Assembly: GCF_036030735.1 (NCBI RefSeq)
Contig: NZ_CP107928.1
Location: 8,742,001-8,806,000, forward strand
Length of the DNA: 64,000 nt
Reading direction: 5' to 3'
Origin: Streptomyces sp. NBC_00425
GTDB lineage: Bacteria; Actinomycetota; Actinomycetes; Streptomycetales; Streptomycetaceae
The notes beneath the pieces are model-generated. The model was not told the DNA's origin and made no database searches. It saw nothing but the letters and a program-made list of their open reading frames with translations. The position numbers and the translations under genes were made by a program. Of the stretch, positions 16,456 through 58,863 are shown in pieces (positions within the stretch are counted from its first letter, which is position 1; every line of letters starts with the position of its first letter).

Positions 16456-16558
16456 ACCACCCATCTCCTGCCATCACGCCGGCGGGATCAGCAGTCCGCA
16501 CGCGCCTTCGCGATGCGGCTCGGCCATCGATACGCCCCTGACCACCACCCGCACCCCC

Positions 16559-16576
16559 CACCGAGGGAGAGTGGAC
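16559..16576 (+). promoter_or_regulatory. Ribosome-binding leader shared with the gene at 38811
   Basis: GAGGGAGAGTGGAC directly before the ATG at 16577 is identical in the 14 bases before the ATG at 38811. The match continues into both Tat signal sequences. GGGAGAG is the probable Shine-Dalgarno sequence. Confidence 0.7.
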
Positions 16577-17227
16577 ATGTCCACCGAACGTTCCCCCCAA
16601 GCCGTGACTCCCCCTGGCGCGTCCCCCACACCACCACCCACCCGGCGTACCGTCATCGTCGCGACCACCGTTGTCGGAGGAGCCGCTGTGGCAGGCGGTC
16701 TGATCGCGGCGCCGCCCGCGCTCGCCGCCGAGGGAGCGGTGGCTGCCGAGGGTCCGCCAGGCAGCCGCCTCTCCTTGACGGTCAACGGCGTCCGGCACAC
16801 CGTGACGATCGACAACCGCACCTCGCTGCTGGACCTCCTGCGCGAGCATCTCGACCTGACCGGCTCGAAGAAGGGCTGCAACGCCGGTGCCTGCGGGGCC
16901 TGTACGGTCCTGGTCGACGGACGCCGGGTCAACTCCTGTCTGACGCTGGCGGTGCGGCTGGAGGGCGCCGAGGTCATCACGATCGAGGGCCTGGCGAAGG
17001 GCGACCGACTTCACCCACTGCAGCAGGCGTTCATCGATCAGGACGCCTTCCAGTGCGGCTTCTGCACGTCGGGCCAGATCGTGTCGGGCGTGGGATGCAT
17101 CCAGGAGGGTCACACCGGCTCCAGGGCGGAGATCCGGGAGTGGATGAGCGGCAACCTCTGCCGCTGCGGCTGCTACGTGAAGATCGAGCGCGCGGTCGAG
17201 CGGGCCGCCGCCGACCGGAAGGGCTGA
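16577..17227 (+). CDS. paoA: PaoA-like periplasmic-type aldehyde oxidase, 2Fe-2S subunit
   Basis: This 216-aa subunit carries two [2Fe-2S] clusters. The plant-type set is CNAGACGACTVLVDG plus Cys in RVNSC; the helical-domain set is CGFCTSGQ and CRCGC. A long N-terminus has a twin-arginine-like signal (TRRTVIVATTVVGG...ALAAEG, about residues 22-52), so the folded complex is probably Tat-exported. In the PaoABC model it passes electrons from the molybdenum subunit to the FAD subunit. Gene order A-B-C followed by an XdhC-type chaperone matches E. coli paoABCD. The ATG at 16577 has GGGAGAG close upstream. paoB follows after 5 bases. Confidence 0.88.
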   Translation: MSTERSPQAVTPPGASPTPPPTRRTVIVATTVVGGAAVAGGLIAAPPALAAEGAVAAEGPPGSRLSLTVNGVRHTVTIDNRTSLLDLLREHLDLTGSKKGCNAGACGACTVLVDGRRVNSCLTLAVRLEGAEVITIEGLAKGDRLHPLQQAFIDQDAFQCGFCTSGQIVSGVGCIQEGHTGSRAEIREWMSGNLCRCGCYVKIERAVERAAADRKG

Positions 17228-38257: not shown

Positions 38258-38522
38258 TCTCACGTTCCTTCAGATCGTTACGCGGTTCATCGCAGGCCCG
38301 GCACGGCCGCCGGCACCTCACCCGCCCCGGGAAGACCCTGCGCGAGCAGACCCCGACCATGCGGCTCATCCGGGGCGGACCAGAGAACTGACCAGTCTGA
38401 CGATCCGGGGTAGCCCGTTTGCGTGGCCTGGCCGTGGCGGTCGGTACAGGTTGACAGACCGCCCAGGTTCTTGACTGCGAGTCATGAGATGCGGCCGAGC
38501 ATGTCCGGCTACGTTACTGGTC
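38258..38522. other. Divergent intergenic region
   Basis: This region separates the minus-strand dehydrogenase from the rightward promoter at 38523. No gene was recognised. The frame that continues into the amidohydrolase is open here, but it shows no homology before 38811. Confidence 0.4.
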
Positions 38523-38568
38523 TTGACTGGAAAATATCCTAGAACTAGCTTGGCTCCAGTTCAAGAGA
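38523..38568 (+). promoter_or_regulatory. Promoter with GTTCAAGAGA start-site element
   Basis: TTGACT (38523-38528), a 17-bp spacer, TAGCTT (38546-38551), 7 nt, then GTTCAAGAGA (38559-38568). This is the best -35/-10 pair of the three promoters that share the element (the others are at 33187-33210 and 33256-33300). The leader to the ATG at 38811 is about 250 bases. Confidence 0.65.
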
Positions 38569-38810
38569 GGGAGTGGGTAGCAGCCCACGTCACCCAGGAG
38601 CGCTCTGGAGCGCGACCCGGTCGCCGGACGCGGCCCGTCAACTCTGCGAGCCGGTCACGACCAGCCCACTCCCTGCCTGCCGCCATGCCTTCGACGGCTG
38701 CGGCTCCAAGGGTCATCGGCCTGATCGCGAACGACGCGCACCCTCGCGGAGCGCAACAGCCATTGGCAGGACCCTGGCAATCACCCGCGCGCCCCAGAGG
38801 GAGAGTGGAC

Positions 38811-40016
38811 ATGCCCGACGACCGTTCCTTCCAAGCCATGAATCCGCCCGCTGAGCCCCGTACCGAGCCTCCTGCCGAGTCCACCCGGCGAAGATTCATC
38901 GCCGCTACTGCCGCTGCCGGAGGAGCCGCCATGGTCGGCGGTCTGGCCGGGGGGCAACCCGCGCTCGCCGCCGAGGCGGTGTCCGGCAGTCGTGCCTCCA
39001 CGGCGGGGGCCGGCTCAAAGGGACATCGGCATGCCGAAACAAAGGAGAAGAAGATGCGCATCGTGGCCGTGGAAGAGGCGTTCTCCATTCCTGGAGCCAT
39101 CCGGCAGGAGGGAGCGATCCGTCAGCGCTTGGAGGCGCCAGAGGCGATCAAGCAGGAGTGGTTCCGTCGCCTGGACGATCTGACCGACCTGCGCCTGGCG
39201 GACATGGATGCCAACGGCGTCGATGTCCAGGTCCTCTCGTACGCCACGCCGGGCTTGGAAGTGATCGAGGACCCGGCGGAGGCGGTGGCCGTCGCGCGGC
39301 GGGTCAACGACCATCTTGCCAAGGCGGTCGCCGCACATCCGAAACGGTTCGCGGGCTTCGCGGTCCTTCCGCTGCAGGACCCCAAGGCCGCGGTCGTGGA
39401 GCTGCGCCGAGCGGTGAAGGAACTCGGGCTCAAAGGCGTGCTGTACAACGACCATGTGCGGGGGCACTACCTGGACGAGCCGCAGTTCAGGCCGGTATGG
39501 GCTGAACTGGAGCGCCTCGGTGTGACGCTGTATCTGCATCCGGCCGTTGTCCCGGCCGACAACTGGCGCGTCTTCGACGGGTACCCCGTGCTGGTCGGGC
39601 CGTCGTGGGGGTGGACCGCGACGACGGGTGCCCATGCGCTCCGGTTGATCTACGGCGGTGTGTTCGACGAGTTCCCGCGCGCGTCGGTGATGTTGGGCCA
39701 CATGGGCGAGCTGCTGCCGTTCCAGATGGCCAGGCTCGACAGCCGCTACGGCCAGGTGCCCCCCGAGCGCAGGGTGCAACACCTGCCCTCGTACTACCTG
39801 CGGAACAACGTGTACGTCACCACCAGCGGAGTCATGTCGCACGCCGCGCTGCTGGGAGCCGTCCATGCCGTGGGTGTCGACCGGGTCCTGTTCTCCATCG
39901 ACTACCCGTTCGAGTCCAGTGCTGCGGCGGTGGAATTCCTGCGCTCCGCACCGTACGCGCCGGCCGACCTCGCGAGCATCGCGCACGGCAACGCCGAGCG
40001 CGTTCTGGGACTGTGA
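38811..40016 (+). CDS. Tat-leader amidohydrolase, 2,3-dihydroxybenzoate/resorcylate decarboxylase-like
   Basis: This 401-aa protein starts with a twin-arginine signal (STRRRFIAATAAAGG...ALAAEA, about residues 24-55). From Met82 the mature part is a full-length amidohydrolase-2/ACMSD-type barrel: MRIVAVEEAF, a metal His in YLHPAVV, HMGE in VMLGHMGELLPFQMAR, and FSIDYPFES. These fit non-oxidative decarboxylases of dihydroxybenzoates. A second start with an ideal ribosome site (AAGGAG, 6 nt, ATG 39054) lies inside the frame, so a cytosolic 320-aa form is possible. The Tat part is close to that of PaoA at 16577. A hairpin terminator follows. Confidence 0.85.
   Translation: MPDDRSFQAMNPPAEPRTEPPAESTRRRFIAATAAAGGAAMVGGLAGGQPALAAEAVSGSRASTAGAGSKGHRHAETKEKKMRIVAVEEAFSIPGAIRQEGAIRQRLEAPEAIKQEWFRRLDDLTDLRLADMDANGVDVQVLSYATPGLEVIEDPAEAVAVARRVNDHLAKAVAAHPKRFAGFAVLPLQDPKAAVVELRRAVKELGLKGVLYNDHVRGHYLDEPQFRPVWAELERLGVTLYLHPAVVPADNWRVFDGYPVLVGPSWGWTATTGAHALRLIYGGVFDEFPRASVMLGHMGELLPFQMARLDSRYGQVPPERRVQHLPSYYLRNNVYVTTSGVMSHAALLGAVHAVGVDRVLFSIDYPFESSAAAVEFLRSAPYAPADLASIAHGNAERVLGL
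39042..39056 (+). promoter_or_regulatory. Internal ribosome-binding site and start codon
   Basis: AAGGAG (39042-39047), a 6-nt spacer and ATG (39054) lie in frame inside the amidohydrolase gene. They coincide exactly with the N-terminus expected for cytosolic relatives. In the long form the site is translated as TKEKKM. Confidence 0.6.
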
Positions 40017-41044: not shown

Positions 41045-41130
41045 AAATCGCGGCGTAGCGTCAGGGACGGCGCAGAACGATGCGCGCTTCTTCCGGCGGT
41101 CGCCGTACGACACGAACGTGGAGGTTTTCC

Positions 41131-42207
41131 ATGACCGACACCACCAGCGAACAGACCGAGCGCAAGCTGCTCGACGAGCTCTACGCGGATTTCGAGGACG
41201 CGGGCCTGATCCCGCTGTGGACCCAGGTGGACGGCCTCATGCCGATGGTGCCGCAGCCAGCCGCGGTGCCGCACCTGTGGCGGTGGGCGGAGCTGCTGCC
41301 CATCGCACAGCGCTCCGGAGAGCTCGTGCCGGTGGGGCGTGGCGGCGAGCGCCGCGCCATGGCCCTGTCCAACCCCGGTCTTCCGGGCCTGCCTTACGCC
41401 ACCCCGACGCTGTGGACCGCGATCCAGTACCTGGGACCGCGCGAGGTCGCGCCCTCGCACCGGCACAGCCAGGGCGCCTTCCGGTTCGTGGTCGAAGGCG
41501 AGGGCGTGTGGACCAACGTCGACGGGGACGCGGTGGCGATGCGACGGGGTGACCTGCTGCTCACGCCGAGCTGGGCCTTCCACGAGCACCAGAACGTCAC
41601 CGATGAGCCGATGGCCTGGCTCGACGGCCTGGACATCCCGCTCGTCTCCGAGCTGGACGCCGGCTTCTTCGAATTCGGCCCCGACGAGCTCTCCACCCGT
41701 GAAACCCCCGAGCGCTCGCGCGGCCAGCGACTGTGGGGCCACCCCGGACTGCGCCCGATCAGCCGGCCTGACCAGCCCAACTCCCCGCTGAACGCGTACC
41801 GCTGGGAGCACACCGATGCCGCTCTGACCGCCCAGCTGGAACTGGAGGACGAGGGCGTCCCCGGCGTGCTCGAGCCCGGGCACGCCGGAGTCCGCTTCTC
41901 GAACCCCACCACCGGCAAGGACGCCCTGGTCACGATGCGCACCGAGATGCGCCGTCTGAGGGCCGGCGCCCGGACCACCCCGGTGCGCACAACCGGCTCC
42001 GCGGTCTGGCAGGTGTTCGAGGGCGAGGCGGTCGCCCAGGTCGGCGACAAGGTCTTCGAGATCGCCAAGGGCGACCTGTTCGTCGTCCCCTCCTGGTGCG
42101 AGGTCTCGCTGTCCGCCCGCACCCAGGTCGACCTCTTCCGCTTCAGCGACGAGCCCGTCTACGAGGCCCTCGGTCTCGCCCGTACCTCCCGAGGAGAACA
42201 CAAGTGA
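41131..42207 (+). CDS. sdgD: Gentisate 1,2-dioxygenase
   Basis: This 358-aa double-cupin Fe(II) dioxygenase opens gentisate between C1 and C2 to give maleylpyruvate. The iron site is in the first cupin (SHRHSQGAFRFVVEGEG and TPSWAFHEHQN). The second cupin (TGSAVWQVFEGEAVAQVGD) is structural. Length and motifs match bacterial gentisate dioxygenases, including SdgD of the Streptomyces salicylate pathway. GGAGG lies 7 nt before the ATG. It is the first gene of a tightly packed seven-step operon, and the next start overlaps its stop (GTGA). Confidence 0.93.
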   Translation: MTDTTSEQTERKLLDELYADFEDAGLIPLWTQVDGLMPMVPQPAAVPHLWRWAELLPIAQRSGELVPVGRGGERRAMALSNPGLPGLPYATPTLWTAIQYLGPREVAPSHRHSQGAFRFVVEGEGVWTNVDGDAVAMRRGDLLLTPSWAFHEHQNVTDEPMAWLDGLDIPLVSELDAGFFEFGPDELSTRETPERSRGQRLWGHPGLRPISRPDQPNSPLNAYRWEHTDAALTAQLELEDEGVPGVLEPGHAGVRFSNPTTGKDALVTMRTEMRRLRAGARTTPVRTTGSAVWQVFEGEAVAQVGDKVFEIAKGDLFVVPSWCEVSLSARTQVDLFRFSDEPVYEALGLARTSRGEHK

Positions 42208-43034
42208 AGCTCGCCACCATCCGCGTCAACGGCACCACGCGCGCCGTCCGCATCGATGAAGACAAGGCGGTGGACCTGGGCGACAGCGACCTGGCGGTCT
42301 TCCTGCGCCACGGTGACTGGGCGACGCGTGCCGCGGACGCCGACGGTGAGACGTACGAAGGCCCACTGGACTACGCCCCCGTGGTCGTCGCCCCGGAGAA
42401 GGTCGTGTGCGTCGGTCTCAACTACCGCACCCACATTCTGGAGATGGGCCGCGAACTCCCCTCGCACCCCACGCTGTTCTCCAAGTTCGCGCGGGTGCTG
42501 GTCGGCGCGTACGACGACGTGACCCTGCCCGCCGCGTCCACGCAGATGGACTGGGAGGCCGAGCTCGGCGTCGTCATCGGTGCCGAGGTCCGGCACGCCG
42601 ACACGGAGCAGGCGCGGGCCGCGATCGCCGGGTACACCGTGCTCAACGATGTCACCGCCCGCGATTGGCAGTACCGCACCACCCAGTGGGACCAGGGCAA
42701 GAACTTCGAGGCCACCACACCCATCGGACCGTGGCTGGTGACCGCCGACGACCCCACGGTCTCCGCACAGGGCCTGAACCTGACGTGTGAGGTCGACGGC
42801 GACACGGTCCAGAAGGCCGACACCGGTGACCTCGTCTTCGACCCGGCCGCACTGATCGCGTACCTGTCCGAGATCGTCACCCTCGTGCCCGGCGACGTGA
42901 TCGCCACCGGCACTCCGGGCGGGGTCGGCCACGCCCGCAAGCCCGCCCGCTATCTGCAGGACGGAACACTCCTCGTCACCCGGATCGAGGGAATCGGCGA
43001 GACCCGCAACACCTGCCGTCGGGAGACGCGGTGA
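42204..43034 (+). CDS. Fumarylpyruvate hydrolase (FAH family)
   Basis: This 276-aa fumarylacetoacetate hydrolase-fold enzyme has KVVCVGLNYRTHILEMG, the metal-binding acidic motif in MDWEAELGVVIG, NDVTARDWQ, and the C-terminal GDVIATGTPGGVG. In this operon the substrate should be fumarylpyruvate, cut to fumarate and pyruvate, the last step of the gentisate route. It starts with GTG overlapping the dioxygenase stop, with GAGGAG upstream, and overlaps the isomerase by 4 bases. Confidence 0.9.
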   Translation: MKLATIRVNGTTRAVRIDEDKAVDLGDSDLAVFLRHGDWATRAADADGETYEGPLDYAPVVVAPEKVVCVGLNYRTHILEMGRELPSHPTLFSKFARVLVGAYDDVTLPAASTQMDWEAELGVVIGAEVRHADTEQARAAIAGYTVLNDVTARDWQYRTTQWDQGKNFEATTPIGPWLVTADDPTVSAQGLNLTCEVDGDTVQKADTGDLVFDPAALIAYLSEIVTLVPGDVIATGTPGGVGHARKPARYLQDGTLLVTRIEGIGETRNTCRRETR

Positions 43035-43756
43035 GCGAACGCCCGGCCGCGATGCTGGGGCGAGTGACCAAGGGCACGGCGGCCTTCGAAGCCGCCGTGC
43101 ACCGGCTGACCGACCCAGGATTCACCAGGCCTTCGTATCTGCCGGGCTGGAGCCGCGCCCACGTGGTCGCCCACGTCGCCCGTAACGCCGATGCACTCGT
43201 CAACCTGCTGACCTGGGCGCGTACCGGTGTCGAGACGCCCATGTACGCAAGCGGCGACCAGCGTGCGCGGGAGATAGAGGAGGGTGCCCGGCAGCCGGCC
43301 GAAAAGCTGCGTGCCGAGCTGCTCGCGGCCGACGGCCGTCTCGCCGGGGAGCTCGCCGCCCTGCCCGACGAGTGCTGGGCGGCGACCGTGCGCACCGCGC
43401 GAGGCCGTGAGGTGCCCGCCTCTCAGGTGCCCTGGATGCGGGTGCGGGAGGTATGGGTCCACACCGTCGACATGGACATGGGCGCCAGCTTCGACGATGT
43501 CCCGCACGATGTGTGCGTGGCCCTGGTCGACGACGTGGCCGCATCCTTCCAGGGTCGACCGGACTGCCCCTCCGTCCGGCTGCAGTCCGAGGACGGCGCT
43601 CACACCTGGCTGCTGGGCGACTCGGTCGACGTCGAGCCGGTCGTGGTCAGTGGTGGTCTGCCCAGCCTGGCCGCCTACGTGACCGGGCGCCCCGTGCCCG
43701 GTCCCTTGTACCCGACCGGCGGGGGATTCCTGCCGAAGCTGCCCGCGTGGCTGTGA
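43031..43756 (+). CDS. Mycothiol-dependent maleylpyruvate isomerase
   Basis: This 241-aa MDMPI/DinB-fold protein has the metal triad of mycothiol-dependent isomerases: His in RAHVVAHVARNADAL (about His48) and the Glu/His pair in VREVWVHTVDMD. It turns maleylpyruvate into fumarylpyruvate with mycothiol as cofactor, replacing the glutathione enzyme of proteobacteria. This is evidence for an actinobacterial host. It overlaps the hydrolase by 4 bases. Confidence 0.92.
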   Translation: MSERPAAMLGRVTKGTAAFEAAVHRLTDPGFTRPSYLPGWSRAHVVAHVARNADALVNLLTWARTGVETPMYASGDQRAREIEEGARQPAEKLRAELLAADGRLAGELAALPDECWAATVRTARGREVPASQVPWMRVREVWVHTVDMDMGASFDDVPHDVCVALVDDVAASFQGRPDCPSVRLQSEDGAHTWLLGDSVDVEPVVVSGGLPSLAAYVTGRPVPGPLYPTGGGFLPKLPAWL

Positions 43757-43772
43757 GCACGAAGGAAAGACG

Positions 43773-45326
43773 ATGAAAGTTGCCTGCATCGGCGCAGGTC
43801 CCGGAGGACTGTTCTTCGCCACACTGCTCAAGCGCAGCCGGCCCGACGCCGAGGTCGTGGTCTTCGAACGCAACCGCCCGGACGACACGTTCGGCTTCGG
43901 AGTGGTCTTCTCGGACGCCACACTCGACGCCATTGACGCCGCCGACCCTGTCCTCAGCGAGGCGCTGGAGAAGCACGGTCGGCACTGGGACGACATCGAG
44001 GTCCGCGTGCACGGGGCACGGGAGCGCGTGGGCGGTATGGGCATGGCGGCTGTGGTCCGCAAGACGCTGCTGAGCCTGCTGCAGGAACGGGCCCGCGCCG
44101 AGGGCGTGCGGATGCGCTTCCAGCACGAGGTCCGCGACGCCTCCGAGCTGGACGACTTCGACCTCGTAGTGGTGTGCGACGGCGCCAACAGCCGTTTGCG
44201 CACCCTGTTCGCCGACGACTTCGGACCGACCGCCGAGGTGGCGAGCGCGAAGTTCATCTGGTTCGGCACGACCTACGCGTTCGACGGGCTCACTTTCGTC
44301 CACCAGGACGGCCCCCACGGTGTCTTCGCCGCCCACGCCTATCCGATCAGTGACTCGCTGAGCACCTTCATCGTCGAGACCGACGCGGACTCATGGGCCA
44401 GGGCCGGTCTGGACGCCTTCGATCCCTCGACTCCGCCGGGCCTGAGCGACGAGAAGACCAAGGGCTACCTGGAAAACCTGTTCCGTGAGCAGATCGACGG
44501 GCACCCGCTGGTCGGCAACAACTCCCGCTGGGCCAACTTCGCCACCCGCAGGGCCCGTTCGTGGCGACGGGGCAAGTGGGTGCTGCTGGGCGACGCCGCG
44601 CACACCGCGCACTTCTCCGTCGGGTCCGGAACCAAGATGGCCATGGAGGACGCGGTCGCGCTGGCCGAGGCCCTGGGGGAGGCGTCTCACAGCGTGCCGG
44701 AGGCACTGGAGATCTACGAGGAGCGCCGCCGCCCCAAGGTGGAGAAGATCCAGAACTCGGCGCGGCCCAGCCTGTCCTGGTGGGAGCACTTCGGCCGCTA
44801 CGTCCGTACGCTCGACGACCCGACGCAGTTCGCCTTCCACTTCCTCACCCGCAGCATCCCGCGGGGCAAACTCGCCGTGCGCGACGCGTTGTACGTGGAC
44901 CGCGTCGACGGATGGTGGCGGGGCCGTCACGAGGCGGAGCCCCTGCAGACGCCATTCCAGGGCGGGCCGCACCGCCTTCCCACGCGGCGGGTGACGGTCG
45001 ACGACGACCTCCTGACCGGAACCGACGGCACCGGCATCCCGATGGTCCCCTTCAGCGGTCGGTCGTCGGGGGTGGGCGTATGGATCGACGCCCCGGACAC
45101 CGAGGAGGGCCTGCCGCTCGCCCTTGATCAGGTGCGTGGGACGGCAGAGGCGGGCGCCCTGCTCGTCGGTGTACGCGGCGGTACGGCGCTGACCCGCGTA
45201 CTGGTCGCGGAGGAGGCCCGGCTCGTGCACAGCCTGCCCGCCGCGATCGTCGGCGCGTACGACGACGACACCGCGACCACGCTCGTCCTCTCCGGCCGGG
45301 CCGACCTCGTCGGAGGCACCAAGTGA
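43773..45326 (+). CDS. sdgC: Salicylyl-CoA 5-hydroxylase (SdgC-like)
   Basis: This 517-aa flavoprotein hydroxylase has an N-terminal FAD motif MKVACIGAGPGGLFFATLLKR, the second FAD motif VLLGDAAHTAHFSVGSGTKMAMEDAVALAEAL, and LVVVCDGANSRLR. The closest known role by family and context is SdgC, which hydroxylates salicylyl-CoA at C5 to gentisyl-CoA using NADH and O2; the thioester then gives gentisate. A C-terminal extension of about 130 residues after the FAD domain has no obvious motif. AAGGAAAG lies upstream of the ATG. It overlaps the next gene by 4 bases. Confidence 0.85.
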   Translation: MKVACIGAGPGGLFFATLLKRSRPDAEVVVFERNRPDDTFGFGVVFSDATLDAIDAADPVLSEALEKHGRHWDDIEVRVHGARERVGGMGMAAVVRKTLLSLLQERARAEGVRMRFQHEVRDASELDDFDLVVVCDGANSRLRTLFADDFGPTAEVASAKFIWFGTTYAFDGLTFVHQDGPHGVFAAHAYPISDSLSTFIVETDADSWARAGLDAFDPSTPPGLSDEKTKGYLENLFREQIDGHPLVGNNSRWANFATRRARSWRRGKWVLLGDAAHTAHFSVGSGTKMAMEDAVALAEALGEASHSVPEALEIYEERRRPKVEKIQNSARPSLSWWEHFGRYVRTLDDPTQFAFHFLTRSIPRGKLAVRDALYVDRVDGWWRGRHEAEPLQTPFQGGPHRLPTRRVTVDDDLLTGTDGTGIPMVPFSGRSSGVGVWIDAPDTEEGLPLALDQVRGTAEAGALLVGVRGGTALTRVLVAEEARLVHSLPAAIVGAYDDDTATTLVLSGRADLVGGTK

Positions 45327-47380
45327 CCACCCTGGAACCGCTGTTCGCCCCCCGAGCCATCGCCGTGCTCGGCGCATCGGCCACGCCCGGGAAGCTCGGC
45401 GCGGCGATGGCCGACTCCCTGGATTCCTTCCCGGGGCCGGTGATGAAGGTCAACTCCGGCCGTCCGGACCCCGATCGGGGCTTCTTCCCCACCGTCGGCG
45501 AGGCCGCCGCAAGTCACGGCATCACACCCGACCTGGTCGTCTCCTGCATCCCGGCCGCCGTGACCGCCGACGCCCTGCGCGAGGCGGCCGCCGTCGGCGC
45601 CCGCGCCGCACTCGTGTGCGCCGGCGGTTTCGCGGAAGCCGGGGGTGACGGTGCGCTGCACCAGCAGGCGTTGACCGAGGTGGTGCGGGACACCGGCATC
45701 CGGGTCCTCGGACCGAACACCTCGGGCTTCCTCGTCCCCCACCGACGGCTCACGGCCAGTTTCGTCCCGGGCGCGCCCGACCTGGAACCGGGTCCGGTGG
45801 CGGTCGTGGCCGCGAGCGGCGGCGTGAACCACGCGCTGGCGTTCGCCCTGGCCGAGGCCGGCGTCGGCCTGCGCCTCGGGGTCGGCCTCGGCAACAGCCT
45901 GGACGTCACCCAGGGCGACGTCCTGCGCCACCTCGCCGAGGACGACGGCGTAAGGGCCGTCGCCCTGCACGTGGAGACCGCCGCGGAAGGCCGCCGCCTC
46001 ACCGAGGCGGTGCGGCGTCTGACCGATAGTGTCCCCGTGGTGGCCCTGGTCGTGGGCCGCAGCGACATCGGAGACTTCGCCCGCTCCCACACCGGTGCCC
46101 TGGCCACCTCCTGGCGCGTGACCCGGACGGCCCTGCGCCAGGCCGGAGCCGTCCTCGTCGACGACGAACGCGACCTCGTCGACGCCGTCACCGCGCTCAG
46201 CCGCGTACGCCTACCCGCCAACCCACGCCCAGGCATCGGCCTGGTCACCGCCCAGGCCGGACCCGGTCTGCTGCTCACGGACGACCTGCGCTCCCACGGC
46301 ATCCAGGTTCCGCCGCTGGTCGAACGGACCGCGAAGGAGCTGCGTGAGCTGCTCCCGGCCCTCACCTATCTGAACAACCCCGTCGACACCGGCCGCCCTT
46401 CGCCCGTGCTCACGCAGGTGGTGGAGCGGGTCTCGGAGGACCCCGGTATCGACGTCACCGCCGTCTACGGGCTGTTGGAACCCACCACCGTGGACCTCCC
46501 GGCCGCGCTGGCCGCCGCACGTACGGCCACCCCGCTCGTCGCCGTCGTCGGCGGACCCGTGGAACAGGCGCGGCGGGCCCGCCGTGAACTCGGTGAAGCC
46601 GGCATTCCCTGCGCGGCCACGCCTGCCTCCGGATCGGCGATGGTGCGCGCGCTCGTCGAGGACGCGGCTGCGCGCACTCGACTGGAGGCCGTCCTCACCG
46701 CCTCCGATGCCCCCGTCCTGCCCCCACCGGGGCCGGTCGACGAGCACACGGCCAAGGGCGTCCTGGCGGACTTGGGCATCCACACACCCGTACGGCGCGT
46801 GTGCGCCGACCCCGCCGAAGCGCACGCGGCTCTCGACGAGCTCGGCGGCTCGGTCGTCGTGAAGATCCTCGACGCGGACATCCTGCACAAGACGGAAGTG
46901 GGCGGGGTCCAGGTCGGCATCCGCACGCACGACGAGCTCGACGAAGCCCTTGTCCGCATGCCCGCGAGCCCCGCGCTGCTGGTGGAGCAGATGGCCCCCG
47001 CGGGTCCCGAACTCATCGTCGGCGTACGCCGGGACCCGGTCTTCGGCCCCGTGCTGGCTCTGGGCGCCGGGGGAACGGCCGCCGAAATCCTCGGCGACGT
47101 CTCCCTGCGCCTCGCGCCCCTGTCCGCGAACGAGGCCCATGGGATGCTCGACGAGCTAGCGACCAGCCAGCTGTTCCTCGGCGCGCGCGGTGCCACCCCG
47201 GTCGACCGTGCGCGACTCACCCACGTGCTGCTCGCCCTGGCCTCCCTTGCCGCCGACGATGCCGTGGCCGAGTGCGAGATCAACCCTTTGCGCGTCCTGC
47301 CCGACGGCGACGTCGTCGCGCTCGACGCCGTACTGCTGCTGCGTGACCCCCGGGATCAAGGAGGATCCGATGACGCGTGA
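45323..47380 (+). CDS. sdgB: ADP-forming acyl-CoA synthetase-like protein (SdgB candidate)
   Basis: This 685-aa protein has the three parts of NDP-forming acyl-CoA synthetases: a CoA-binding domain (LFAPRAIAVLGASATPGKLG), a ligase domain with the phospho-His loop FARSHTGALATSW (about residue 255), and a C-terminal ATP-grasp domain (GSVVVKILDADILHKTEVGGVQVGI; GPELIVGVRRDPVFGPVLALGAGG). In the salicylate route it should take part in forming salicylyl-CoA together with the AMP-ligase. Assignment to SdgB is by context. It overlaps the AMP-ligase by 11 bases. Confidence 0.8.
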   Translation: MTTLEPLFAPRAIAVLGASATPGKLGAAMADSLDSFPGPVMKVNSGRPDPDRGFFPTVGEAAASHGITPDLVVSCIPAAVTADALREAAAVGARAALVCAGGFAEAGGDGALHQQALTEVVRDTGIRVLGPNTSGFLVPHRRLTASFVPGAPDLEPGPVAVVAASGGVNHALAFALAEAGVGLRLGVGLGNSLDVTQGDVLRHLAEDDGVRAVALHVETAAEGRRLTEAVRRLTDSVPVVALVVGRSDIGDFARSHTGALATSWRVTRTALRQAGAVLVDDERDLVDAVTALSRVRLPANPRPGIGLVTAQAGPGLLLTDDLRSHGIQVPPLVERTAKELRELLPALTYLNNPVDTGRPSPVLTQVVERVSEDPGIDVTAVYGLLEPTTVDLPAALAAARTATPLVAVVGGPVEQARRARRELGEAGIPCAATPASGSAMVRALVEDAAARTRLEAVLTASDAPVLPPPGPVDEHTAKGVLADLGIHTPVRRVCADPAEAHAALDELGGSVVVKILDADILHKTEVGGVQVGIRTHDELDEALVRMPASPALLVEQMAPAGPELIVGVRRDPVFGPVLALGAGGTAAEILGDVSLRLAPLSANEAHGMLDELATSQLFLGARGATPVDRARLTHVLLALASLAADDAVAECEINPLRVLPDGDVVALDAVLLLRDPRDQGGSDDA

Positions 47381-49031
47381 GGGATTCGTACCCTGGCCCA
47401 AGGAGGCGGCCGACCGCTACCGCGAGGCCGGGTACTGGCGTGGCAGGCCGCTCGGCTCGTACCTGCACGAGTGGGCGGAGACCTACGGCGGCACAGTGGC
47501 CGTTGTGGATGGCGACACGCGCCTGACATACCGTCAACTCGTCGACAGGGCTGACGGACTGGCGTGCCGCCTGCTGGACAGGGGCCTTAACCCCGGTGAC
47601 GCGATGCTCCTCCAGCTGCCCAACGGCTGGGAGTTCGTCACACTCACCCTCGCCTGTCTGCGGGCCGGCATCGCTCCCGTGATGGCGATGCCCGCGCACC
47701 GCGGTCACGAACTGCGCTACCTGGCCGCCCATGCAGAGGTCACCGCGATCGCCGTACCGGACCGACTCGGCGACTTCGACCACCGGGCCCTGGGCCGGGA
47801 GGTCGCCGAAGACACCCCGAGCGTACGGTTGTTGCTCGTCGCCGGTGGCACTGCCGGTACCGACGTCACGGACCTGCGCGCCCTGGCCGAACCGGCCGAC
47901 GACCCGGCCGGCGCACGGGCCCGGCTCGACGACATCTCTCCGGACAGCGGAGACATCGCCGTCTTCCTGCTCTCCGGCGGCACGACCGGACTGCCGAAGC
48001 TCATCACCCGCACCCATGACGACTACGAGTACAACGCACGGCGCAGCGCCGAGGTCTGCGGCCTCGACGCCGACTCCGTCTACCTGGTGGCGCTGCCCGC
48101 CGGACACAACTTCCCCCTGGCCTGCCCCGGCATCCTGGGCACCCTCATGAACGGCGGCCGGGTCGTCCTGGCCCGCACCCCGGAACCCGGCAAGGTGCTG
48201 CCGCTGATGGCCGCCGAGGGCGTGACGGTCACCGCCGCCGTACCGGCCGTCGTCCAGCGCTGGATCGACGCGGTGGCCTCGGGCCGCCACCCCGCCCCGC
48301 CGGCCCTACGGCTGTTGCAGGTGGGGGGCGCCCGCCTCGCGCCGGAGGTCGCCCGCCGCGCCGAACCCGTGCTCGGCGGCACACTCCAGCAGGTGTTCGG
48401 CATGGCGGAAGGGCTGCTGAACTACACGCGCCCCGACGACCCAGACGAGATCAAGATCGAGACGCAGGGCCGCCCCATGTGCCCGGACGACGAGATCCTC
48501 GTCGTCGACGCCTCCGACGAGCCGGTCCGGCCCGGCGAGATGGGCGCGCTGCTCACCCGCGGCCCGTACACCCCACGCGGCTACTACCGGGCAGCCGATC
48601 ACAACGCCCGAGCGTTCACCCCTGACGGCTGGTACCGCACGGGTGACGTCGTACGGCTGCACCCGTCGGGCAATCTCGTCGTCGAAGGACGGGACAAGGA
48701 CCTCATCAACCGGGGCGGCGAGAAGATCTCCGCCGAGGAGGTCGAGAACCTGATCTACCGCCTGCCCGGTGTCGCCCGCGTCGCGGCCGTCGCGAAGGCC
48801 GATCCTGACCTGGGGGAGCGGGTGTGCGCCGTCGTGGTCGTCGAGCCGGGGACCCACCTGAGCCTCGAATCGGTGCGTGCCGCCCTCACCGCCATGCAGG
48901 TGGCCCGCTACAAGCTCCCCGAAGACCTCATGGTCGTGGAGGAGTTGCCGCTGACAAAGGTCGGCAAGATCGACAAGAAACGCCTGCGGGAGGTCGTCCG
49001 TGGCACGGCGGACTCCGTCGAGGCGGTGTGA
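47370..49031 (+). CDS. sdgA: Salicylyl-AMP ligase (SdgA/DhbE-like)
   Basis: This 553-aa ANL-superfamily adenylate-forming enzyme of the 2,3-dihydroxybenzoate/salicylate-AMP ligase branch has FVPWPKEAADRYREAGYW at the start, the P-loop LLSGGTTGLPKLITRTHDDY, ALPAGHNFPLACPG, QVFGMAEGLLNYTR, and a C-terminal lid Lys in LTKVGKIDKKRL. It activates salicylate as the adenylate. AAGGAGG lies 5 nt before the ATG. No siderophore NRPS genes are near, which together with the operon favours catabolism. It is the last gene of the operon, followed by a strong hairpin. Confidence 0.87.
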   Translation: MTREGFVPWPKEAADRYREAGYWRGRPLGSYLHEWAETYGGTVAVVDGDTRLTYRQLVDRADGLACRLLDRGLNPGDAMLLQLPNGWEFVTLTLACLRAGIAPVMAMPAHRGHELRYLAAHAEVTAIAVPDRLGDFDHRALGREVAEDTPSVRLLLVAGGTAGTDVTDLRALAEPADDPAGARARLDDISPDSGDIAVFLLSGGTTGLPKLITRTHDDYEYNARRSAEVCGLDADSVYLVALPAGHNFPLACPGILGTLMNGGRVVLARTPEPGKVLPLMAAEGVTVTAAVPAVVQRWIDAVASGRHPAPPALRLLQVGGARLAPEVARRAEPVLGGTLQQVFGMAEGLLNYTRPDDPDEIKIETQGRPMCPDDEILVVDASDEPVRPGEMGALLTRGPYTPRGYYRAADHNARAFTPDGWYRTGDVVRLHPSGNLVVEGRDKDLINRGGEKISAEEVENLIYRLPGVARVAAVAKADPDLGERVCAVVVVEPGTHLSLESVRAALTAMQVARYKLPEDLMVVEELPLTKVGKIDKKRLREVVRGTADSVEAV

Positions 49032-52264: not shown

Positions 52265-53449
52265 ATGAACCTGCGACGGAACATCTCGCGTCGAAGGATG
52301 ATTGAAGGAGCATCGGCCGCGGCACTCGTCACGGCTGCTGCGGCCACCATGCCTGCTGCCATGGCCAGTCCGGAGACGGCATCGTCCGGCCCGGGACTGC
52401 CGAAAGGCAACTGGCGTATCGACACCCACGCGCACTACTCGCCCGACGTGTACAACGACTACCTCAAGCGCTATGGCCTCCTCGGCGCCATTACCGGGGC
52501 CTACGGTCCCTGGTCGGTCGAGCGGCACGTGGCCTTCATGGACCAGTACCGGATCCAGGCCAGCGTCCTGTCGTTCGGCGACCTTCAGATCACCGTCGGC
52601 CCGGTGGACGACCGGCGCGCCACCGCCCGCGCGGTCAACGACTACGCCCGCGACCTCGTGCAGACCCGTGGTGACCGATTCGGGATCTTCGCGGTCACCC
52701 CGATGCCCGACATCGAGGGCTCGGTGGCCGAGGTGGACCGCGCGCTCGGCGAACTGGATCTCGACGGCATCTGCCTGCTCACCAACTACAAGGGCACCTA
52801 CCTGGGGGACCCTTCGTTCGCGCCTCTGTACGAGATCCTCAACGACCGCGGTGCCTACGTGTACGTCCACCCGACGGGGCCGGAGAACAACCCGGCTCCC
52901 AAGTTGTGCTTCGGCCCCGACATCCCGGCCGGGAACAACGTCTTCGAGTACAACTTCGACGCGACCCGCGCGATGACGAGCCTGATCTACAACGGTGTCC
53001 TGCGGGACTACCCGAACATCCGCTGGCACTTCACCCACAGCGGCGGGGCACTGCCGTTCCTGGCCTTCCGGCTCGCGACCCGGCACTCGGCCTTCCCACC
53101 GTTCAACGAGGTGCTGCCCGAAGGCCCCCTCACGTACATGAAGCGGATGTACTTCGACAACGCACAGGCATTCACCGCCGCGCAGTTGCAGCCGCTGTCG
53201 TCGCTGGTACCCGACAGCCACATCATGTTCGGCAGCGACTGGCCGGCGACCCGCCATCTCTACGCGGCCGACAACGTCGAGACGATGCCCTTCCTCAAGG
53301 GCAGCCTGCCGAATCTCAAGGCAGGCGACCCCGAACCGAACGTCGACGAGATCTACAGCCGGCGCCGGCGGATCGCTCTCGAGCGGGACAACGCCCTCGA
53401 GCAGTTCCCGAAGCTGAAGGCGCGTATACGCCGCTCCGGCTCTCGCTGA
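52265..53449 (+). CDS. Tat-leader amidohydrolase (ACMSD/decarboxylase type)
   Basis: This 394-aa protein has a twin-arginine signal ISRRRMIEGASAAALVTAAAATMPAAMAS (about residues 6-35). A metal-dependent amidohydrolase-2 barrel follows: IDTHAHYSP (HxH metal pair), YVHPTGPENNP, WHFTHSGGALPFLAFRL, and FGSDWPATRHL. The fold includes 2-amino-3-carboxymuconate semialdehyde and hydroxybenzoate decarboxylases and lactone hydrolases. It is one of four such proteins in the window and the second with a Tat signal; here the signal resembles its own rather than the PaoA type. A hairpin follows. Confidence 0.85.
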   Translation: MNLRRNISRRRMIEGASAAALVTAAAATMPAAMASPETASSGPGLPKGNWRIDTHAHYSPDVYNDYLKRYGLLGAITGAYGPWSVERHVAFMDQYRIQASVLSFGDLQITVGPVDDRRATARAVNDYARDLVQTRGDRFGIFAVTPMPDIEGSVAEVDRALGELDLDGICLLTNYKGTYLGDPSFAPLYEILNDRGAYVYVHPTGPENNPAPKLCFGPDIPAGNNVFEYNFDATRAMTSLIYNGVLRDYPNIRWHFTHSGGALPFLAFRLATRHSAFPPFNEVLPEGPLTYMKRMYFDNAQAFTAAQLQPLSSLVPDSHIMFGSDWPATRHLYAADNVETMPFLKGSLPNLKAGDPEPNVDEIYSRRRRIALERDNALEQFPKLKARIRRSGSR

Positions 53450-55703: not shown

Positions 55704-56648
55704 TCAGGCCAGTCCCAGAAGTGCTTCGGCGTTGCCGGCCAGGATGCCCTGGGTGTCCGCTGCGTCGAGCCCGGCCCGTTCGATGTAGGCGACGGTGTCG
55801 AGGTAGTGCTCGCCGCCCTGGTACGGGAAGTCGCTGCCGAGGACGAGCCGGTCCGCGCCGACCGCCTGGACCGCGGCCTGCAGTGCCGCCTGGGAACTGT
55901 GGGCGACGGTGTCGTACCACATCCGGCGCGCCGCCTGGCTCGGCGGAAGGGGGGCGTCAGGTGCCTCGAAGTGGGCGAGGTTGTCCCACCGCTCCAGCAG
56001 CATGGGCAACGCGCCGCCGAAGTGGGAGTTGAGGATGCGTACACGGGGGTAGCGCGTCACGAACCCACGGGTGATGAGCTGGGCCGCTACGACGGTGTCC
56101 TCCACGGGCGCGCCGACCATCCAGGTGAGGTGGTGGTCGGTGATCTGCGGGGAGGCGACGCCGTCGCCGGCGGGGTGGAGGTACATCACGGTGCCGCGGC
56201 GGTCGAGTTCCTGCCATACCGGTGCGAAGGCAGGGTCGGTCAGCGCCCGGCCCGCGGCAGAGGTGGTCAGGGCCACGCCCACCACCCCCGGCGCCTCGAG
56301 GACGCGGTCGAGTTCGGTCAGAGCCGCGTCGACGTGCGGCAGAGGAAGCACGACGAAGGCCAGGAAGCGGTCGGGGTGGCGGTCCACCAGGGCGACGTAC
56401 CGGTCGTTGATCATGTGTGCGGCTGCGGCGGCCTGCTCCGGATCCGGCAGAGCGCCCGTCATGGGTGAGGCCGAGATCACCTGTCGGTCCACACCGGCCC
56501 GTTCCATCAGGGAGAAGCGGGCCTCGAGCTCCTTGTCGGTGTCGTCGGCCCCGAGCCCGCGCTGGCCGCCGGTGGTCGTGACGCCCGAGTCGGCCAGGAA
56601 GTCCAGGTAGTCGCTGGGGTAGACGTGAGCGTGCGTGTCGATCCGCAT
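55704..56648 (-). CDS. Amidohydrolase-2 family protein (decarboxylase-like)
   Basis: This 314-aa cytosolic metal-dependent barrel has RIDTHAHVYP (HxH), VMYLHPAGDG, ILNSHFGGALPMLLERW, and VLGSDFPYQGGE (metal Asp). These match the ACMSD/hydroxybenzoate decarboxylase group. There is no signal peptide. GAGGAACT lies before the ATG at 56648. It lies downstream of the aldo/keto reductase and a further amidohydrolase on the same strand, probably one operon (58863 to 55704). The polypurine tract precedes it. Confidence 0.87.
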   Translation of the reverse strand: MRIDTHAHVYPSDYLDFLADSGVTTTGGQRGLGADDTDKELEARFSLMERAGVDRQVISASPMTGALPDPEQAAAAAHMINDRYVALVDRHPDRFLAFVVLPLPHVDAALTELDRVLEAPGVVGVALTTSAAGRALTDPAFAPVWQELDRRGTVMYLHPAGDGVASPQITDHHLTWMVGAPVEDTVVAAQLITRGFVTRYPRVRILNSHFGGALPMLLERWDNLAHFEAPDAPLPPSQAARRMWYDTVAHSSQAALQAAVQAVGADRLVLGSDFPYQGGEHYLDTVAYIERAGLDAADTQGILAGNAEALLGLA

Positions 56649-56672
56649 GACGGAGTTCCTCAATCGTCGAGC

Positions 56673-57903: not shown

Positions 57904-58863
57904 TCACCGCGCTGTCCGCGGAAACAGGCGCTGGGCGTTCGCCGTCGTGAGCGATCGCCATGTCGTGTCCCGCGCCGGTGGTTCGGCCGCGTCGATCGCC
58001 GCGATGTGGGCGTCGGCCAGCGGCGCGGGCGTCCAGCAGTAGTCGCTGCCGAAGAGCACGCGGTCAGGGTCGACGAGCTTCAGCAGTGCGGGGACCTGGC
58101 GAGGGAAGGCTGTGCTCGCCATGTCGTAGTACAGACCGCGGAGTTGCTGCACCGCGTCGGGGCCGGGCGGTTGCCGCGCATGCAGGAACAGGCTCATGAA
58201 CTCGTTGATGCGGTCGGCCAGGACGGGAATCGCGCCGCCGCAGTGCGGGACGATCACCCGCATGTTCGGATGACGCGTCAGGACGCCCTCCATCACCAGG
58301 TCCGTGACGGTCCGGGCCGTGTCGAAGATGTACTCGACCATCGGACGCGGTCTGCCGAGCGCCGACTGCTCCCAGCAGACGGGCGAGGTGGGGTGCAGGA
58401 AGACCACCGCCCGCCGCCGGTCGAGCTCCGCGAAGACCGGGTCGAGGCGCTGGTCGCCCAGGTACACCCCGTGGGTGTGGGTCAGCAACGCCACGCCGTC
58501 GGCGCCGAGTTCGTCGAAGGAGAAGGCGATCTCCTCGACCGCGCCGTCGACGTCCGGCAGCGGAAGTGACACGAAGTTGCCGAAACGGCCCGGGTGGTCC
58601 CGGGTCAGTTCGGCGGTGTACTCGTTGACGCGCCGGGCTAGGAGGCGGGCCGCCTTGTCGTCGCCGAAGTGCACACCGGGGGAGGACATGGAGAGCATCG
58701 CGGTCTCGATGCCGTTGCGGTCCATCAGATCGAGATGGGCTTGCAGGGACCAGGACGGCCAGCCGCCCATGCCGTCGGGGTGGGCGTGGCCTGCGGCCGT
58801 CGCGTGCTGGACGTAGAAGTCGGGAAGCATGTGGGCGTGGACATCGATGAGGCTGGAGGACAT
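57904..58863 (-). CDS. Amidohydrolase-2 family protein (decarboxylase-like)
   Basis: This 319-aa metal-dependent barrel has LIDVHAHMLPDF (HxH), VVFLHPTSPVCWEQ, VIVPHCGGAIPVLADRI, and VLFGSDYCWTPA. It is close in layout to the proteins at 55704 and 52265 but has no signal peptide. Decarboxylation or C-C hydrolysis of an aromatic or unsaturated acid is expected. It is 57 bases downstream of the antiporter gene on the same strand. Confidence 0.87.
   Translation of the reverse strand: MSSSLIDVHAHMLPDFYVQHATAAGHAHPDGMGGWPSWSLQAHLDLMDRNGIETAMLSMSSPGVHFGDDKAARLLARRVNEYTAELTRDHPGRFGNFVSLPLPDVDGAVEEIAFSFDELGADGVALLTHTHGVYLGDQRLDPVFAELDRRRAVVFLHPTSPVCWEQSALGRPRPMVEYIFDTARTVTDLVMEGVLTRHPNMRVIVPHCGGAIPVLADRINEFMSLFLHARQPPGPDAVQQLRGLYYDMASTAFPRQVPALLKLVDPDRVLFGSDYCWTPAPLADAHIAAIDAAEPPARDTTWRSLTTANAQRLFPRTAR

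Follow-up and report, generated by a model that had tools for sequence, protein, structure and literature searches.

The DNA analysed (hereafter the window) is a stretch of 64,000 nucleotides from Streptomyces sp. NBC_00425. Translation of the open reading frame at 38811–40016 gives a protein of 401 residues that comprises a Tat leader, a linker ending in TKEKK and an enzyme starting at Met82. This gene, the features within it and just upstream of it and the paoA-like gene discussed below all lie on the forward strand. The enzyme body (39054–40016; 320 residues and the stop codon) is of the Amidohydro_2, gamma-resorcylate / 2,3-dihydroxybenzoate decarboxylase type. It matches PF04909 (Amidohydro_2) with an E-value of 1.2e-38 and 134 bits, against a curated cut-off of 26.4, and the sequence of 2dvt with an E-value of 8e-71, in an alignment that starts at query residue 85 and 2dvt residue 5; a search of the enzyme against NCBIfam returned no family at E 0.001. 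Chain 2dvt_C was also the top Foldseek match (TM(target) 0.90) of an AlphaFold2 model of the 401-residue protein, built from 41 sequences with a mean pLDDT of 73.3. In this model pLDDT stays below 50 over residues 1–79 and order sets in at about residue 80, so that the predicted start of the domain coincides with the internal start codon described below.

When aligned with 2dvt, residues E88, H243, H297 and D364 lie in motifs that match, and none of the four varies over the 41 aligned rows; their counterparts in gamma-resorcylate decarboxylase are presumably the metal-binding and catalytic residues Glu8, His164, His218 and Asp287. The EEHF motif of 2dvt reads EEAF in the window enzyme, with A90 invariant over the 41 rows. 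Since the fungal 2,3-dihydroxybenzoate decarboxylases are likewise not known to have the second histidine of EEHF, this substitution counts against the gamma-resorcylate subtype only. Judged by sequence and model, the body is a decarboxylase-type enzyme with putative activity on a dihydroxybenzoate-like acid. The region 41080–49031 contains genes that by resemblance encode a gentisate dioxygenase, an FAA hydrolase, a mycothiol maleylpyruvate isomerase, a salicylyl-CoA 5-hydroxylase and a DHB-AMP-ligase-like protein (the dioxygenase, hydroxylase and ligase score under their NCBIfam cut-offs). The region resembles a set for the conversion of salicylyl-CoA to gentisate, which suggests aromatic-acid catabolism. 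Further along, a second amidohydrolase (52265–53449) has a twin-arginine leader of its own (SRRRMIEGAS), and two leaderless amidohydrolases are found on the minus strand at 55704–56663 and 57904–58863.

The Tat leader occupies residues 1–53 (38811–38969), with the twin arginine R26-R27 (38886–38891) in TRRRFIA. Inspection by eye of T25-RRRFIA, the A/G-rich stretch and ALA-A shows the features of an S/T-R-R-x-F-L-K-like Tat signal (consensus as worded in the extracts of PMC4899797), and an AxA cut is predicted after ALA, at residue 53. The linker follows (residues 54–81; 38970–39053), and its 3' part is probably an old 5'UTR, as discussed below. Ahead of the leader lies a paoA-like 5'UTR (38737–38810), which begins where the upstream alignment with paoA begins and contains the ribosome site of the leader, GAGGGAGAG (38797–38805). 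At the protein level, 36 of the 43 rows P0001–P0043 have the twin-arginine leader and the other seven records begin near codon 41. At the DNA level, 21 distinct orthologous loci were compared (duplicates L039, L041 and L065–L067 removed; L043 and L044 are contig-end pieces from one assembly, with 225 body codons), and 17 of them have an in-frame leader that includes the twin arginine. A GGAG-type ribosome site precedes the upstream ATG in all 17 loci in which this ATG was located by motif, a set that includes L015 (L032 and L040 were not located, and L011 and L042 are not given).

Within the h-region of the leader there is a decoy combination of a Shine-Dalgarno (SD) sequence and ATG (38919–38933), with the start codon at codon 41 (38931) and an SD duplex energy of -9.5 kcal/mol. 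Across 18 loci this codon is GTG in 16, ATG in one and CTG in one, and the SD energy is -8 or lower in 10 of the 18; the codon-41 start of the seven short records among P0001–P0043 is probably a mis-annotation. Database records place the start of the gene in three ways, giving proteins of 401, 361 and 320 residues, so annotation can miss exported forms of catabolic enzymes. A promoter inside the leader was sought and no sigma-70-type site was found in 38300–39200; promoters of other kinds are frequent in Streptomyces.

The internal SD, AAGGAG (39042–39047), is followed after a 6-nt spacer by an in-frame ATG at codon 82 (39054–39056). The initial annotation had pointed to this arrangement at 39042–39056, and to codon 82 as the place where cytosolic relatives begin; both statements hold, the leaderless proteins P0051 (from Streptomyces sp. 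846.5), P0056 and P0058 (from Amycolatopsis balhimycina) beginning at this very Met. With SD strength calculated as duplex energy against an anti-SD 11-mer, the upstream start scores -9.8 kcal/mol versus -9.2 for the internal one. In the 39 open reading frames of the window, which were delimited by hand with some starts approximate, 1.9% of 216 internal in-frame ATGs and 31% of the 39 starts have a site as strong as -9.2. The presence of a decoy of equal strength at codon 41 of the same frame means that the SD-ATG motif by itself proves little, and conservation of the internal site says more than the strength of the motif.

A closer comparison of the 21 loci showed GGAG at positions -10 to -7 of the internal ATG in every one, the ATG itself in 20 (L038 has CTG, with its leader intact) and an internal SD of -8.6 to -9.7 kcal/mol in 20 (-6.6 in L015). 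In the ungapped comparison six of the ten positions from -10 to -1 are invariant and none of the 32 from -42 to -11, and the linker ahead of the site varies in both sequence and length. The residues encoded at the site vary as well (KEKK, SEEK, SEDK, SEKK, SEAK, VEEK, PEEK), codon -4 being AAG, TCG, GTG or CCG, or GGG in the frameshifted L040, while the SD stays constant. In raw values, over 17 loci, none of 133 mRNA segments is less structured than the one at the junction. Synonymous-codon shuffling of these 17 loci gave a mean z of 0.69 for openness of the junction mRNA, nothing exceptional next to the range of -1.08 to 0.88 found at 14 control places or to the sister-clade value (0.65 at +12), and selection on this openness was dropped as support. 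The AT-richness of the third base at codon -2 (0.71 of the 21 loci) was also left unused, as four body columns reach 1.0.

A relative of the leader block is found in the same window. A paoA-like gene (16577–17227) encodes the iron-sulphur subunit of a PaoABC-type aldehyde oxidoreductase; its best NCBIfam match is NF008514 (PaoA), at 216 bits and under the cut-off of 322. Its 5'UTR (16500–16576) and leader (from 16577 on), together 16500–16739, are kin of the block ahead of the decarboxylase. The close likeness to the paoA leader that had been noticed from the letters was borne out by the protein alignment (48%, query 2–75 of 81, E 3.7e-8) and extends to the DNA of leader and 5'UTR (71%, query 2–237 of 251, E 1.9e-27). 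This match, 22 kb from the decarboxylase gene, covers the leader and about 70 nt of the 5'UTR and is the sole strong DNA match in the 9.8-Mb genome, the next best place having an E-value of 3.2e-4. A PaoA query found matches in 14 of 15 genomes (not in G261), and all 14 have at least one copy with a twin-arginine leader. Among the 30 paoA loci fetched, this leader was read in 24, was absent from L114 and was left unread by the motif in five.

In a DNA tree of 40 leader blocks, 17 decarboxylase blocks form one clade (100/100) among 23 paoA blocks. The window genome's own paoA, L032 and L040 were missed by the motifs and are not in this tree. The decarboxylase clade is closest to the paoA type of L092–L097, which lies about 12–40 kb from the enzyme gene in three of six genomes (G108, G222 and G779). 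The tree was rooted at its midpoint and so proves no direction of transfer; a passage from paoA to the enzyme is supported by the fact that close PaoA relatives generally carry the leader, which many relatives of the enzyme lack. It is thus highly probable, from sequence homology, that the leader block was captured from a paoA-type gene, and it probably moved once.

The untranslated stretch upstream of the paoA-like block (38649–38733) is probably a decayed copy of the old 5'UTR of the enzyme, with a borderline score against its own linker (31; mean 22.5 and maximum 29 in 100 shuffles) and no remaining ribosome site (SD -1.7). It shows no kinship with paoA (score 16, null mean 16.9), whose homology starts after it, at 38737, and it aligns with the L033 and L038 copies, which are clear. 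In L033 the 89 nt upstream of the paoA-like block are homologous to the linker and internal ribosome site of L014 (score 78; mean 19.5 and maximum 30 in 200 shuffles). A recheck scored the upstream stretches against 19 linkers with 100 shuffles each and gave 78 for L033, 72 for L038 and 51 for L014, with shuffle maxima of 34, 30 and 37. Altogether nine of 17 stretches exceed all their shuffles, narrowly except in these three loci, and eight do not; the two copies within one locus score only 12–38 against each other.

At its edge, located by motif in 16 of the 21 loci, the upstream copy has ACG where the downstream copy has ATG. The SD at this edge is weaker than the internal one in all 16 and reaches -8 or lower in two. 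In L033 and L038 it is -9.5 versus -9.7 for the internal site, though nothing starts at the upstream copy; an unused site can therefore survive, and decay is not universal. The stretch ahead of the edge looks replaced in L013 and L034–L036, and within the DNA examined an aldehyde dehydrogenase gene ends upstream in eight of the 21 loci. The likely order of the locus is a first copy of the old 5'UTR, the 5'UTR and leader of paoA, the second copy with its ribosome site, and the enzyme. The second linker-like copy upstream indicates that the translated linker probably derives from the enzyme's old 5'UTR, an identity that we consider likely. The earlier proposal that an old ribosome site is now translated as TKEKK thus finds support, weaker than that for the capture of the leader.

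Matches at an E-value of 1e-100 or better were found in 22 of 392 Streptomyces genomes and, by identity, eight of them belong to this clade, six to the sister clade and eight are more distant. A second draw of 391 Streptomyces genomes added no further orthologue to this clade. With the leaderless P0058 as query (E 1e-95), 394 genomes of the class gave five matches, three of them of this clade. A contig scan gave 34 loci, with the window-type leader in Streptomyces records and in Actinobacteria bacterium OV320. Restriction of the leader to this lineage is supported by the comparison of orthologues; a leader spread across many genera and lacking the internal site was not seen in the 392 Streptomyces genomes, the 394 genomes of the class or the 34 loci of the scan. 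Of the description of the gene as a recent fusion, the capture is supported, as what looks like a single event, and the word recent needs qualifying, as the median pairwise dS of the clade is about 0.26 (19 loci).

A tree of 106 rows, some of them leaderless, contains three leader types, each in a part of its own, which may mean that export arose on more than one occasion. The third type (MSEQHPSK...SRRNFIRKS) is seen in P0089, P0090, P0094, P0099, P0117 and their kin, mostly from metagenome sources, one of them named as a Chloracidobacterium MAG. One leader-intact orthologue, L090 (NZ_CP108366.1), is placed on a 1.7-Mb linear plasmid of Streptomyces sp. NBC_01340 that is typed mobilizable, so that the gene may travel.

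Four of the 21 loci lack a working leader. In L040 the leader goes out of frame immediately ahead of the SD, in one draft assembly where this could be a sequencing error; L015 has a nonsense codon ahead of the leader arginines; L011 and L042 have no leader, with the stop of the aldehyde dehydrogenase gene upstream. Each of the four has an open body of 320–321 codons behind the internal site. The dN/dS of these bodies to their nearest relatives is 0.12–0.24, as pairwise and not branch-specific values, close to the median of 0.19 over all pairs among 19 loci. On the best body tree, in which 10 of 21 inner branches are weak, the leader state needs four changes; L042 is sister to the leader-intact L031 (87/97) and L011 is unplaced, and in these two the leader may have been excised between the copies or may never have been inserted. 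The body of L015 is identical to that of P0047, a short record. A short record does not prove that the leader was lost, since the body of P0046, also short, is identical to that of the leader-bearing L090.

The sister clade (11 loci: L016–L021, L045, L046, L048, L049 and L052) has enzymes about 70% identical and a Tat leader of another type (MTTGSS...SRRRLLAAAAG). All 11 retain the Met at the junction, with an SD of -4 to -5 ahead of it. Three leaders of this clade are damaged, those of L019 and L049 lacking the arginines and that of L018 being out of frame. L030, a leaderless copy listed with the sister clade, was left out of the count. Genome G009 carries both the Tat-led L016 and this L030, whose SD is strong (-10.3), and there two genes may do what the single gene of the window may do.

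These observations would be explained if a gene for a cytosolic-type decarboxylase received, once, a 5'UTR, ribosome site and Tat leader derived from paoA, a step supported by homology and the tree. The block would have gone into the 5'UTR that the enzyme gene already had, and some loci would still carry a second copy of this 5'UTR upstream; the homology of that copy was demonstrated in a few loci, and its identity as the old 5'UTR is our interpretation. The downstream copy would have become an in-frame linker that retained the old ribosome site and ATG, and two starts with comparable ribosome sites would now serve one open reading frame. Initiation at 38811 would give a precursor for Tat export, cut after ALA, and initiation at 39054 the ancestral cytosolic enzyme. 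Both forms would probably be made, some species having later settled on one. We infer double initiation, export and use of both forms from the DNA and its conservation. That an exported and a cytosolic product are both made seems fairly probable on this sequence evidence, and the complete account, with leader capture, a linker from the old 5'UTR, two starts and two products, is reasonably probable as a whole.

It is unlikely that the upstream start alone is used and the enzyme is exported only, the internal site being a vestige that has not decayed or is held by amino-acid constraint. With this codon usage, K and E codons do give rise to SD-like DNA by themselves, and among ten body columns with a conserved Glu three have an invariant codon, GAG in two of them; at the site itself, however, the amino acids at -4 and -2 vary under a constant SD. 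The strong SDs of the unused copies in L033 and L038 suit a vestige, as does the unremarkable outcome of synonymous shuffling, yet the upstream edge has the weaker SD in all 16 loci where it was located. L038, with its leader intact and no internal ATG, fits this reading, and the Tat-led sister clade lacks a junction SD in 11 of 11 loci, with three leaders damaged; against this, the ATG is retained in 20 of the 21 loci and the bodies are open behind the internal site in the four where the leader is broken or gone. Those same four loci would fit the opposite case, of a leader that is a passenger, little translated or non-functional and on its way to being lost, so that the enzyme is cytosolic only, but this is improbable given a leader in frame with its twin arginine in the other 17 and a GGAG-type site before each of the 17 motif-located upstream ATGs. 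SD-like sequences may act as translation pauses, and a pause in place of a start, 81 codons in and about 28 residues past the predicted cut, might let the Tat leader emerge before the body, but this is very improbable, as it leaves the ATG of 20 of the 21 loci unexplained and the site is also present in loci with no working leader and absent from the sister clade.

If both forms are made, a single insertion that spared the old ribosome site could at once have given a one-place enzyme a second place. Tentatively, selection would have kept the two-start state in most of the Streptomyces clade, with exported-only or cytosolic-only states elsewhere, as an analogue of subfunctionalisation achieved with no gene duplication. 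The flanking copies may permit a clean deletion of the leader that restores the old gene, of which L011 and L042 would be cases. As a rule, the way in which an enzyme changes compartment has to be deduced from endpoints that diverged long ago. In this clade, living species still show the family that supplied the leader, one boundary of the insertion, remnants of both copies of the sequence that received it, the two-start state and several subsequent losses, and a stepwise route to dual localisation becomes testable in ordinary Streptomyces.

Literature searches gave, among the matches listed, no paper on this gene. The parts of the protein have known counterparts. The gamma-resorcylate / 2,3-dihydroxybenzoate decarboxylases (2dvt, 6m53 and 7a19) share the sequence type and fold of the body, and their aligned chains span this body and not the leader. 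The PaoA-type Tat leader is homologous in both leader and 5'UTR DNA and is carried in the window by an unrelated enzyme. Signal peptides of Enterobacterales are often gained and lost, with losses exceeding gains, according to the extracts of PMC5952966, in which Tat groups were removed from the set.

As for the two starts, which with their ribosome sites flank the leader in frame across loci, the extracts of PMC4899797 describe PA2699 of P. aeruginosa, a member of the amidohydrolase superfamily, with Tat-led and leaderless forms from two starts. According to these extracts either start worked on a plasmid with the other mutated, and the leader drove a Tat reporter and is lost in some relatives; the forms, when tagged, aggregated and were not observed outside the cell, and the authors consider it possibly the first bacterial protein with two locations through two starts. 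The likeness lies in a pair of starts of which the upstream one gives a Tat leader and the downstream one does not, as predicted from sequence for the window gene. PA2699 belongs to Amidohydrolase_3, whereas the window enzyme is Amidohydro_2, and, unlike for the window gene, the extracts name neither a donor gene nor a duplicated 5'UTR. A second precedent is the E. coli arginine decarboxylase SpeA, in which initiation at an in-frame internal codon yields a shortened form located in the cytoplasm and not in the periplasm (extracts of PMC9825163 and PMC13245402, citing Meydan 2019), but this form is only 26 residues shorter, the enzyme family differs from that of the window, and the origin of the leader is not discussed in those extracts. 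By this comparison the proposed working mode is of a known kind, that of PA2699 and SpeA, and what appears new is a readable history with losses in both directions.
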